In this document: positions 4,048-13,508 of the stretch, piece by piece
Layout of the letters: every line of letters begins with the position of its first letter
Position numbering within the stretch: position 1 is the stretch's first letter
Position numbers and translations under genes: made by a program
The notes under the pieces: model-generated
Database searches by the model: none
Seen by the model: the letters and a program-made list of their open reading frames with translations, nothing else
Told to the model about the DNA's origin: nothing
Origin: Bacteroidales bacterium
GTDB lineage: Bacteria > Bacteroidota > Bacteroidia > Bacteroidales > UBA932
NCBI GenBank assembly: GCA_017934185.1
Contig: JAGBJY010000014.1
Span: 1-39,486, forward strand
Reading direction: 5' to 3'
Length of the DNA stretch: 39,486 bases

Positions 4048-4135
4048 AGCGGGGTAGCTCAGTTGGTAGAGCTTCGTGCAGTAAGCGGTAGCACTAACCG
4101 CTTGGTCGCAGGTTCGAATCCTGCCCCCGCGACCA
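4048..4135 (+). tRNA. tRNA-like element with an aberrant anticodon domain
   Basis: The 88-base segment has a 7-base acceptor strand AGCGGGG pairing with CCCCGCG (first pair A:G mismatched), a canonical D arm GCTC-AGTTGGTA-GAGC (4057-4072), a canonical T arm GCAGG-TTCGAAT-CCTGC (4108-4124), a discriminator A and an encoded CCA (4133-4135). Between the D arm and the next hairpin are 10 bases instead of one, and that hairpin is a 7-bp stem AAGCGGT/ACCGCTT with the 7-base loop AGCACTA. The loop lacks the universal U33, so it cannot be a normal anticodon loop (the nominal anticodon would be CAC). It may be a degenerate tRNA or a tRNA mimic. Confidence 0.6.
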
Positions 4136-4339: not shown

Positions 4340-4411
4340 GACCGGCCTAAGGCCCTGGGAAGCCCGCCCTCTCCAGCCTGGCCGTTGGGGGGGCACCAAC
4401 TGGAACGGAAG

Positions 4412-6466
4412 ATGAACATTGACAACATAGTTACAGTGACGGTGCAGCAGCTGACGGACGCCAGCTCCGGCGAGGCCGTGATGAGTAGGGCGTGTTATGA
4501 CAAACTCGTTCAGCGCAAACTTATCACCGTTATCCGTCCTGGCAAGGGCCTGGATCATCCTGCCCTGGTGGACTTCGATTCCCTTCCGACCCGTTTCAAG
4601 CAGCGTTTTATCGCCATTTACGGCGACCCCCACAAGCAAATGGAGAAAGAGCAGGAGTTGCGGCTGGATCCGGCCGCCCGTGTCTTCTTCGAGGACTATA
4701 TCCTTCCGGATGACACTCATATCAAGGCAGAGAAGATTGCCGAGTTCACCCTTAATGCCTCAGTGCTGAATTCCCTTATCGACATGGAGAAGACGCAGGG
4801 AGTGAGCCGCCGGCTCTACGGCAACAGCACGCCTATCAACTGGCCTCCCATCTATGCCGAGTGCGAGAAACTGCGTGAGGCCTACGGGCACACCCTCCCT
4901 AAGAGCACGGCCCGCCTGAGGGACAAGATCCGCGAGTATAAGCGTGACGGCTACGCGTGCCTGGTGAGCGGTCACCTGGTGAATGCCAATGCCTGCAAGA
5001 TCACGCCGGAGGCCGGGCAGTACATCATCGCCCTCAAGTGCTCCAGGGTGCCCGTGTACAACAATGCACAGATCTTTGCGAAATACAACGCGGTGGCGCC
5101 TTCTCGCGGCTGGAAGCCGGTGAAGTCTCAGGCCGCCATCACCAGTTTCCTTGAGCGCCCGGAAGTGAAGATTCAATGGTACGGATCGGTTGTCGGCGAC
5201 ACGAAGGCCAAGATGCACTATACCCGTATGAATTCCACCATCCTTCCCACCCTGCCCAATGCGCTCTGGTACGGCGATGGAACCCGGCTCAACCTCTTTT
5301 ACAGGGCTTATGTGGACGGCCGCTACAAGCTGGCCACCCTGAATGTCTATGAGGTCATCGACGCCGCTACGGAGGTTTTCCTGGGCTGTCACATCAGCAA
5401 TACGGAGAATTTCGAAGCCATCTACGAGGCCACCAGGAACGCACTGGAGTTCGCCGGCTGCAAGCCTTACGAGTACGTGACCGACAACCAGGGCGGCACG
5501 AAGCGGGCCGACGCCCAGGAGTGGCTGCGGAAGGTGGCCACCTGCTTCCGCACCACGGCCCCTCACCAGGCACCTGCAAAGACCATCGAGTCCGTCTTCG
5601 GCCGCTTCCAGGCCCAAGTGCTACATCAGGAATGGTTCTATACCGGCGGCAACATCACCGCCAAGAGCGACGCGGCACGCATCCACCGCGAATTCATCGA
5701 AGCCAATATCGACAAACTGCCCACCTATAAAGAGGTAGTGGAGATATACATGAATGCCCGGCAGCGCTGGAATGCGATGGAGCATCCGGATAAGAAGCGC
5801 TATGCCGGACTTTCCCGGCTTCAGGTCTATCAGTCCACGGAGAACCCGAAGGCTGTCCCTCTGACGGACGCCATCCGCCGCGACCTGTTCTATGTCACGA
5901 CGGCCAGGCCTTCGAAATTCACCGCCTATGGCATCTGGTTCACCGTTTCCGGAGAGAAACACCAGTATGAGGTTTTTGGCAAGGACGGCGAGCCGGATCT
6001 GCTTTGGCGCCGGGAGAACACCGACCGGGAGTTCTACGTGTCCTATGACCCGCGCGACCTCTCCACGGTGCGCCTGCTGACGTTGGACCAGTACGGATAC
6101 CGCTTCGTGGCCGAAGCCGGCCCTTACAGGATGAACCACCGTGCCCTGCAGGACCAGACTGCGGAGGAGCGGAGTTTCATCAGGCAACAGGACGCTCGGA
6201 ATAAGATTGACCGGATCCAGCGCAATTTGGCCCTTGACGAACTGCTGCACCGCGAGGGGATGGCGCCGGAACAGCACGGATTGGTGGATCCCGGCCTTTC
6301 CTCCCTCAATGAAAGCAAAAAGAGTTATGAGCGTCTTTTGGAAAAGGCCCGGGGCGCGGAGGAGCCGGAGCCGGCCGAGGTCTATCCGGATACCCTCGGC
6401 CAGCAGGAGAAGGCCGACAGCCTGCGGACGCAGTACAATCCGACTGCAGCCTTGAACAGGATTTAG
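4412..6466 (+). CDS. MuA-like DDE transposase, 684 aa
   Basis: The phage transposase/integrase that cuts and joins the prophage ends for integration and replicative transposition. The catalytic triad is visible with Mu-like spacing: Asp289 (WYGDGT), Asp358 (VTDNQG) and Glu393 (KTIESVFGRF); in MuA it is D269, D336, E392. The N-terminal region (about 1-230) should hold the end-binding helices; the region after about 480 corresponds to the MuA beta-barrel and MuB-contact tail. ATG 4412 is preferred over TTG 4385, which would begin in a G7 run. It is followed 30 bases later by the MuB-like ATPase, the usual A-B pair. Likely targets are the AAAAACRAAATG boxes at both ends. Confidence 0.95.
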   Translation: MNIDNIVTVTVQQLTDASSGEAVMSRACYDKLVQRKLITVIRPGKGLDHPALVDFDSLPTRFKQRFIAIYGDPHKQMEKEQELRLDPAARVFFEDYILPDDTHIKAEKIAEFTLNASVLNSLIDMEKTQGVSRRLYGNSTPINWPPIYAECEKLREAYGHTLPKSTARLRDKIREYKRDGYACLVSGHLVNANACKITPEAGQYIIALKCSRVPVYNNAQIFAKYNAVAPSRGWKPVKSQAAITSFLERPEVKIQWYGSVVGDTKAKMHYTRMNSTILPTLPNALWYGDGTRLNLFYRAYVDGRYKLATLNVYEVIDAATEVFLGCHISNTENFEAIYEATRNALEFAGCKPYEYVTDNQGGTKRADAQEWLRKVATCFRTTAPHQAPAKTIESVFGRFQAQVLHQEWFYTGGNITAKSDAARIHREFIEANIDKLPTYKEVVEIYMNARQRWNAMEHPDKKRYAGLSRLQVYQSTENPKAVPLTDAIRRDLFYVTTARPSKFTAYGIWFTVSGEKHQYEVFGKDGEPDLLWRRENTDREFYVSYDPRDLSTVRLLTLDQYGYRFVAEAGPYRMNHRALQDQTAEERSFIRQQDARNKIDRIQRNLALDELLHREGMAPEQHGLVDPGLSSLNESKKSYERLLEKARGAEEPEPAEVYPDTLGQQEKADSLRTQYNPTAALNRI

Positions 6467-12445: not shown

Positions 12446-12550
12446 GGGCGCGTCAAAGGCAGTGATTAAGAGTAACCTTGCAAGCAAATTTGGGATTGCT
12501 GGTGAAGCCGACATCGTAGAGCCAAAGTGAGGATGCCACGCGCCCTTTTT
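12446..12550 (+). ncRNA. Candidate structured RNA with closing stem and U-run
   Basis: GGGCGCGT (12446-12453) pairs perfectly with ACGCGCCC (12538-12545), enclosing 84 bases with internal hairpins (AAGG/CCTT and AGCAA/TTGCT), and is followed by TTTTT (12546-12550). For a plain terminator the loop is far too long, so a folded RNA ending in an intrinsic terminator is more likely. No clear own promoter; it may be processed from the upstream transcript. I do not recognise it as a known class. Confidence 0.5.
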
Positions 12551-12581
12551 ATTAACCCGACGAAAGCCGTGCTTAAAGGTC

Positions 12582-12612
12582 TTGCAAAAGTAAAAAAAAA
12601 TAAAGATATTTG
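12582..12612 (+). promoter_or_regulatory. Promoter for the 12616 RNA
   Basis: TTGC (12582-12585), exactly 19 bases, then GATATTTG (12605-12612), one mismatch from TAnnTTTG. The predicted start (about 12616-12618) coincides with the first base of the long helix of the following RNA. An A-rich spacer adds to the promoter-like look. Confidence 0.7.
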
Positions 12613-12615
12613 CCA

Positions 12616-12761
12616 TGTCCAACATATAGCGCGATCTTGAATGAGGAACCCCTCCCTCATTAGGATTTGGCAAAGAGTGAGTTACTCAGGTCCGTCGTGT
12701 CCGTAAGGCTCGACAGCATTTTGCCTCAGGCACTATGTGTTGGACAGGACCTGAGTTTTTA
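12616..12761 (+). ncRNA. Structured RNA with two interleaved helices (pseudoknot or switch)
   Basis: Bases 12616-12629 pair with 12733-12746 (14 bp, one G-U). Bases 12684-12693 (ACTCAGGTCC) pair perfectly with 12747-12756 (GGACCTGAGT), which is followed by TTTT. The two helices interleave, with their 3' strands adjacent, so they form a pseudoknot or exclude one another. Further hairpins: AATGAGG/CCTCATT (about 12639-12660), GUCG...CC-GUAA-GG...CGAC (GNRA tetraloop, about 12694-12714) and TGCC-TCA-GGCA (about 12722-12732). The transcript runs into the BRO-N gene at 12774, whose start codon region repeats TGTCCAACA from the RNA 5' end. Confidence 0.65.
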
Positions 12762-12773
12762 TCGTTTTTAGCA

Positions 12774-13508
12774 ATGTCCAACACTAAAAACTCCGCTGGC
12801 ACCGTACTGCCGCAGGCGTTCACCTTCAACGCTTCCAACCAGCAGGTGAGGACCGTCACCATCGACGGGGAGCCTTACTTCGTCGCAGCTGATGTCTGCA
12901 GTTGCCTTTCCATTTCAAACAACCGCCAGGCCGTGGCCTCATTGGATGACGATGAGAAAAGGGTGTCAGTAGTAATGACACCCTTGGGAGGACCGCAATC
13001 TATGACGGTTATTAACGAGTCCGGCCTTTACGATCTGATCTTCCAGTCGCGCAAGCCGGAGGCGAAGGCCTTCCGGAAGTGGGTGACCTCGGAGGTGCTG
13101 CCAGCGCTCCGCAAGACCGGAGAGTACCGCCTGCAGGCCCGGAAGACCGGGCGTCCCATCCGCGGGGAGCGGGTGAACGCCGACATCCTCAATCTCCTCT
13201 GGCTGATCGGCGAGAGCCTGGAGCCCGGGGACATCTCCACTCTGGCGCTTGAACTGGGCGTATGCCGGCAGACGGTGAGCCGTGTGCTCAACGGCCAGCA
13301 GCGCAGCAGCCGGGTGCTGATGGCGCTGTACCGGAAGGCCCAGCAGAACCGCGAGGCCTTCCTGCTCTACAACCAGCCCCGCATGATGGCGGACCGCCTC
13401 GTTAGCGGGGAGCCTGTACCCCCTGGGAATCACCTGCCGGCCGTGCGCTTCGACGGCCGCAAGCGCGGCGCCCAGCACGGAAACCAGAATGCGCGGAAAA
13501 ACAAGTAG
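12774..13508 (+). CDS. BRO-N antirepressor-like protein, 244 aa
   Basis: Residues about 10-115 form a BRO-N domain (VTIDGEPYFVAADVC...SLDDDEKR...VINESGLYDLIFQSRKPEAKAF), typical of phage antirepressors. The rest contains a HTH-like stretch (about 150-185, LALELGVCRQTVSRVLNG) and a basic glycine/asparagine-rich tail. It is the first protein after the structured RNA at 12616. I start at ATG 12774; an earlier in-frame ATG at 12735 would lie inside the RNA helix. Its start region can pair with the RNA (12738-12746), so translation may be RNA-controlled. The likely role is relief of repression or control of the lytic switch. Confidence 0.8.
   Translation: MSNTKNSAGTVLPQAFTFNASNQQVRTVTIDGEPYFVAADVCSCLSISNNRQAVASLDDDEKRVSVVMTPLGGPQSMTVINESGLYDLIFQSRKPEAKAFRKWVTSEVLPALRKTGEYRLQARKTGRPIRGERVNADILNLLWLIGESLEPGDISTLALELGVCRQTVSRVLNGQQRSSRVLMALYRKAQQNREAFLLYNQPRMMADRLVSGEPVPPGNHLPAVRFDGRKRGAQHGNQNARKNK

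Follow-up and report, generated by a model that had tools for sequence, protein, structure and literature searches.

The window, that is, the whole 39,486-base stretch that we analysed, is an entire contig of a 2.13-Mb draft genome, and its gene content reads as that of a Mu-like phage, with a transposase (4385-6463; PHROG 310), AAA ATPases, a Mu portal protein and Mu F-like proteins. A tRNA-Thr with anticodon AGT lies just upstream of the transposase gene (4048-4135, forward strand; 44.4 bits with Rfam). An S24-type phage repressor is encoded on the reverse strand (1845-2822; Peptidase_S24, E 4.5e-12; PHROG 4, transcriptional repressor), and a BRO-N protein that resembles an antirepressor, hereafter Ant, is encoded on the forward strand at 12774-13508 (Pfam Bro-N, E 1.2e-25; best PHROG match, PHROG 130, anti-repressor Ant, E 1.2e-48). 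The repressor is the presumed target of Ant. The nearest named protein relatives were from Prevotella and Bacteroidales; together with the type of the promoter described below, they point to a host that probably belongs to Bacteroidota. The ant frame is also open from an upstream ATG at 12735; we took 12774 as the start because the pairing target described below sits at the TG of the ATG in 16 of 26 relatives.

Ahead of ant, on the same strand, we found a compact element. It starts with a predicted promoter, TTGC (12582-12585) followed after 19 nt by GATATTTG (12605-12612), which we take to be of the Bacteroidota type. A scan of 12500-12900 for a sigma-70 promoter and a short-loop terminator gave none; the candidate promoter would be of the Bacteroidota type and the stem has a loop of 53 nt. 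Three nucleotides past the TTTG, where the RNA is predicted to start, begins a strand that we call S (12616-12632). It is a copy of the target and pairs over 17 nt, with one mismatch, with the antisense strand A (12730-12746; S:A score 16.7). A predicted hairpin (12633-12667) separates S from a core, the closing stem of which pairs 12684-12693 with 12747-12756 over 10 bp and encloses a small predicted hairpin with a GUAA loop (12701-12708). The 3' strand of this stem abuts A and is followed by a T-run up to 12760, the predicted 3' end of a short RNA. Nucleotides 12737-12746 of A are complementary over 10 bp to the target T (12775-12784), which consists of the TG of the start codon and codons 2-4 of ant, and no other of the 22 targets compared suited A as well as T did.

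These observations bear out all the sequence features of the initial annotation, which had described the promoter arrangement, a 14-bp helix (12616-12629 with 12733-12746; 14 pairs are indeed present), the 10-bp helix that interleaves with it and precedes T residues, and a repeat of the RNA 5' end at the ant start, such that 12738-12746 complements both. The repeated 9-mer, TGTCCAACA, occurred three times when both strands of the window were scanned (0.29 expected; three were reached by 1 of 100 shuffles), at 12616-12624, at 12775-12783 and, reversed, at 12738-12746, all within 170 nt. The region folded better than every one of 200 shuffles, with z-scores of -4.24 for 12600-12800, -4.06 for the 147-nt RNA (12616-12762) and -3.98 for the 79-nt core (12684-12762). 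For a hairpin formed around the start codon of ant, the fold was no better than that of shuffles (z -0.26). No DNA homolog of the element was found in INPHARED by blastn, and the genome itself holds one copy. Among 299 genomes of the family of the window, the matches listed besides the window itself were only short, the best being 30 bases long (E 2e-4).

We gathered BRO-N loci from viral contigs, genome contigs and genomes, reduced them to 297 nonredundant leaders, and scanned these for a promoter box, S, A, a T-run and T. This three-strand scan gave 29 matches, three of which (L162, L212 and L073) were removed by eye because of non-ATG starts and weak pairing. The remaining 26 leaders share one order of parts: promoter box, S, 5' strand of the closing stem, A, 3' strand of the closing stem near a T-run, and T at the ant start codon. 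The same scan with swapped targets gave 10.2 matches per round at the lowest threshold against 29 real ones, 3.0 against 19 at a score of at least 24, and 0.45 against 15 at a score of at least 28; the bottom seven of the 26 fall in a range of scores that swapped targets often reach too (7.35 per round at a score of at least 20). A score of 24 was reached at three of the 5,892 other gene starts. The best of these, L393:522, has the three-strand layout ahead of a gene for a Rha regulator (Phage_pRha). Rha (PF09669) had matches in none, and ANT (PF03374) in one, of 247 genomes of the class of the host. The genome of the window contains a second BRO-N gene (L068, at G000:C55:1425-1718), whose leader gave no match in the three-strand scan.

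Two other scans were weak when taken alone. A search for the two helices gave 15 matches, two of them the window itself and one its copy L001, compared with 1-7 in each shuffled set. When no promoter box was required, the three-strand scan picked out 29 of 189 leaders, compared with 8-17 when targets were swapped. The relatives share the layout without similarity at the DNA level: blastn of the leader yielded no usable match to the first 54 relatives collected, and base pairs were therefore counted in a register fixed by the helices rather than on an alignment. Thus L002, whose protein is 60 percent identical over the best segment, has the same parts in other letters. Named hosts are available for 4 of the 26, all of them Bacteroidota (L002, through L070, L071, L072 and L086), including Prevotella sp. 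S7-1-8 for L002/L070 and Bacteroides acidifaciens DSM 15896 for L086; the other relatives are viral contigs. L011, L049 and L075 looked like members by eye and stand outside every count of 26.

A ranking of targets on leaders that had been picked with the help of T is partly circular. As a clean test, we selected leaders by box, S:A helix and T-run, without using T. This selection retained 22 of the 297 leaders (22 of the 286 with an ATG; 99 have the box), against 0.3 per shuffle, and 8 of 4,077 starts of other genes, two of which, L237 and L393, we read as real. In 19 of the 22 leaders the region of their own start was the best partner of A when compared with the other 21 targets. It ranked second in L457, and L075 and L086 failed; L086 is a weaker member with a split target, and in L075 the start codon may, as judged by eye, have been misplaced. 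Further evidence came from the 16 leaders in which T begins at the TG of the ATG, where 141 of 144 A:T cells pair at positions +2 to +10, and all four Watson-Crick types are present at +5, +6, +7 and +10. Split A:T matches were seen in L045, L046, L368 and L002. The arms thus vary between phages while their pairing is preserved. The initial annotation had held that a lack of compensatory changes in homologous phages would speak against its helices; what the relatives displayed was wholesale change with pairing kept.

The other parts of the layout also recur in a fixed register. A TAnnTTTG-like box precedes S in all 26 leaders by selection, and S begins 3-5 nt past the TTTG in 21 of them, at 0 in one and at 11-14 in four; in these four the helix is split and, by eye, its earlier part begins nearer. 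A TTG 20-27 nt upstream of the TTTG, for which there had been no selection, was present in 18 of 26 leaders (4.4 expected). A T-rich stretch near the closing stem was part of the selection, and a helix at the position of this stem beat mononucleotide shuffles (P <=0.05) in 22 of 26, those that missed being L375, L457, L159 and L368.

The layout is that of the C4 locus of phage P1. The P1 record lists putative targets a1 and b1, the C4 RNA, targets a2 and b2, and then icd and ant; in the window, S takes the place of a1b1, the stem with A inside it that of C4, and T that of a2b2. For both C4 (RF01695/RF03163) and the window, copies of the target flank the RNA on either side, upstream of an antirepressor operon and on one strand; a closing stem surrounds the antisense strand, and the folded stretch is 79 nt long. 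A tetraloop hairpin within the core is common to C4, c4-2 and the window. The window differs from C4 in having a single 10-nt target on the start codon, whereas a2 and b2 lie upstream of icd, and one 10-bp antisense stretch instead of the two-part a' and b'. Unlike C4, the predicted RNA has S at its 5' end, and the stem is followed by a T-run, in place of which processing is described for C4 (PMC5320573). By the account in that source, RNase P cuts at the 5' end of the closing stem of C4, after which the target mRNA is bound, and the C4 RNAs of P1 and P7 differ by 4 nt. C4 is further described as binding the ant mRNA near its ribosome-binding site (PMC12197685, PMC5320573) and as acting in trans (PMC8546580).

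The C4 models (RF01695/RF03163) did not match the window, while the positive control, P1, was matched by C4 and c4-a1b1; as a leader RNA, the window matched no Rfam family. The c4-2 RNA (RF02944), which reportedly stems from a 2017 paper, belongs to the same Rfam clan as C4 (CL00128). Its model is about 79 nt long and comprises an outer closing stem with a U tail and two hairpins, one of which has a tetraloop. Compared by eye with the structure line of this model, the predicted core of the window (12684-12762) has the outer stem, the tetraloop hairpin and the U tail. The c4-2 model itself gave no match in 12560-12830 or in the whole genome of the window up to an E of 10. Since neither model matched, we did not file the window as a member of C4 or c4-2, yet it would work like one.

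Several relatives are matched by c4-2. L046, L374 (on the contig of L050) and L075 were above the cut-off, and L373 (L045), L298 (L153), L455 and L175 were below it, with E from 3.9e-5 to 0.0032. All these matches lie on the core, and they concern five of the 26 leaders (L046, L045, L153, L455 and L175) in addition to L050, in which no clear target was visible, and L075. No c4-2 match at E <=0.5 was found in the leader for 15 of the 20 leaders that were scanned permissively, and none for L026, L071, L086 and L025, which were scanned at the c4-2 cut-off only. On contig L458, c4-2 has a match below the cut-off (63-153, 32.4 bits), at a place other than the ant leader. The initial annotation had recognised no described RNA class. 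This holds for the sequence of the window, but the kind has been described, as is apparent from the layout of P1 C4 and from the c4-2 matches in relatives.

In the class of the host, c4-2 was found in 3 of 295 genomes, and above the cut-off in one of them (G121), which has six copies (L502 and L505-L509). These copies show antisense pairing too. Their S/T repeats are exact over 13-15 nt in L502, L505, L506 and L507, with a sequence that differs from copy to copy; in L508 and L509 they span 8-9 nt. The 8-mer and S are distinct in L509, where S pairs as TGCAAAA. In contrast to the element of the window, which precedes an antirepressor gene, the G121 copies precede small genes of a kind that we did not recognise, and Pfam gave no match for the three that were tested (after L502, L506 and L509). 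L502, L505 and L506 have near-identical c4-2 cores and paralogous 77-aa proteins behind them, while their arms are different. A model that we built from the c4-2-like sequences contained 6 pairs only.

The sar RNA of phage P22 also resembles the RNA proposed here in being antisense against the translation of ant, and it is not known to precede ant on the coding strand along with a target copy. By the account in PMC12197685, it is an antisense RNA by which translation of ant is blocked. In the literature that we searched, which lay outside the primary papers on C4 and c4-2, we came across no RNA of this sort described from Bacteroidota; a mechanism acting on the start codon may be new.

The element is real, its layout is conserved, and we read it as a divergent form of the C4/c4-2 kind. 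Its anatomy, the conservation of its layout, the cognate pairing and the likeness to C4 and c4-2 support an antisense RNA of this kind that blocks translation of the antirepressor at its start codon, and we give this reading a probability of about 0.7. As read from the sequence, the mechanism is likely the following. The promoter would start an RNA at or beside 12616, and many transcripts would stop near 12761, at the closing stem and T-run. The result would be a short RNA of some 147 nt, which might be cut back further to the core (12684-12762). Strand 12737-12746 would pair with the ant start and first codons (12775-12784) on the read-through mRNA and block its translation; no Ant would then be made, the repressor would hold and the virus would stay dormant. 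S would act as a decoy that occupies A in cis and keeps a newly made transcript from silencing itself. In 22 of 26 leaders A pairs more strongly with S than with T, and it must therefore be freed somehow; trimming or strand exchange could do so and allow action in trans. The presumed link with lysogeny rests on the assignment of the antirepressor and on the precedents of C4 and sar, as presented in PMC12197685 and PMC8546580.

It is less probable, though still to be reckoned with, that the element acts in cis only, A pairing with either S or T within one transcript and the closing stem being a conditional terminator set by a protein, a ribosome or processing, with no RNA acting in trans. S, A and T do lie on one strand behind one promoter, and in nested folding the S:A fold of the window (-53.6 kcal/mol) is close in energy to the closing-stem fold (-51.4 kcal/mol); the two helices could alternate or stack as a pseudoknot. 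Nested folding, which ignores pseudoknots, gave a mean pairing of 0.63 for S:A and of 0.12 for A:T in cis in the mRNAs of the 26 leaders. Removal of S raised the latter to 0.32, by more than 0.2 in 8 of 26, but in the window A:T in cis stayed at 0 whether S was present or not. Since A:T in cis is low in these folds and the T-run separates A from T, the evidence favours a released antisense RNA acting in trans over a switch in cis only, without proving either; the C4 precedent, as described in PMC8546580, also acts in trans. The initial annotation had inferred an RNA switch that sets the lysis-lysogeny decision, a role that is presumptive in its reading as in ours. Its promoter-driven RNA, two helices, start-codon pairing and antirepressor target all recur in the relatives, while a self-contained switch in cis is weakened by the low A:T pairing (0.12 vs 0.63 for S:A).

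Two further explanations do without an RNA. S/A and A/T are inverted repeats, and phase-variable inversions are common in Bacteroidota, so that the three strands might be recombination repeats by which part of the leader is flipped. We find this very improbable: each locus has its own repeat sequences, the promoter is not enclosed by them, and the closing stem and the promoter register would be left unexplained. In addition, G-U exceeded A-C in S:A, as RNA pairing permits, by 32 to 17 with a symmetric scorer and by 33 to 8 when the register came from a scorer tolerant of G-U. No such excess was seen in A:T (6 to 21 with the symmetric scorer; 12 to 13 in the G-U-tolerant register, or 12 to 12 once the A of ATG was left out). 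Repeats that arose by chance in an AT-rich leader could account for matches such as those obtained with swapped targets at the lowest threshold (10.2 per round) or without the promoter box (29 vs 8-17). They would hardly make the leader's own target the best one in 19 of 22 cases picked without T, give 22 leaders against 0.3 per shuffle, pair 141 of 144 A:T cells or place TGTCCAACA three times against 0.29 expected, and we consider chance the least credible explanation of all.

To our knowledge, little is known of the means by which temperate phages in Bacteroidota stay dormant and emerge from dormancy. The antisense RNA proposed here is a candidate switch whose specificity can be read from the sequence, and members with named hosts exist. 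If it acts in trans, immunity groups would be predictable from about 10 nt, the catalogued motif c4-2 would gain a mechanism, and many members missed by the c4-2 model could be found by their layout. More tentatively, and with the odds somewhat against it, the C4/c4-2 layout may serve phages and mobile genes of Bacteroidota as a general system of antisense addresses, and the window would be a member beyond the present models. An address of about 10 nt would be present in the start codon and the next codons, in the antisense strand, and in a 5' decoy copy, and only genes with the same address would be silenced. The start codon would be targeted because Shine-Dalgarno pairing plays only a small part in these hosts, and the near-identical c4-2 cores with different addresses before paralogous small genes in G121 are as such insulation would require.

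Some other leaders contain part of the layout or carry other motifs. L129 has 13 A:T pairs without S. Four leaders that are not assigned to Bacteroidota (L101, L119, L162 and L186) gave weak matches in the three-strand scan without the promoter box, with the target on a Shine-Dalgarno-like AGGAGG or AGG; these may be due to chance. The viral contig L026 has two matches to Acido-Lenti-1 RNA (142-186 and 556-600). In Porphyromonas gingivalis phage005b (L498, PP754928.1), the same parts precede an annotated anti-repressor, with an A:T match of 8 bp, and the leader carries an annotated hypothetical CDS on the scale of 33 codons (1352-1450 of the locus) that is perhaps not a gene.
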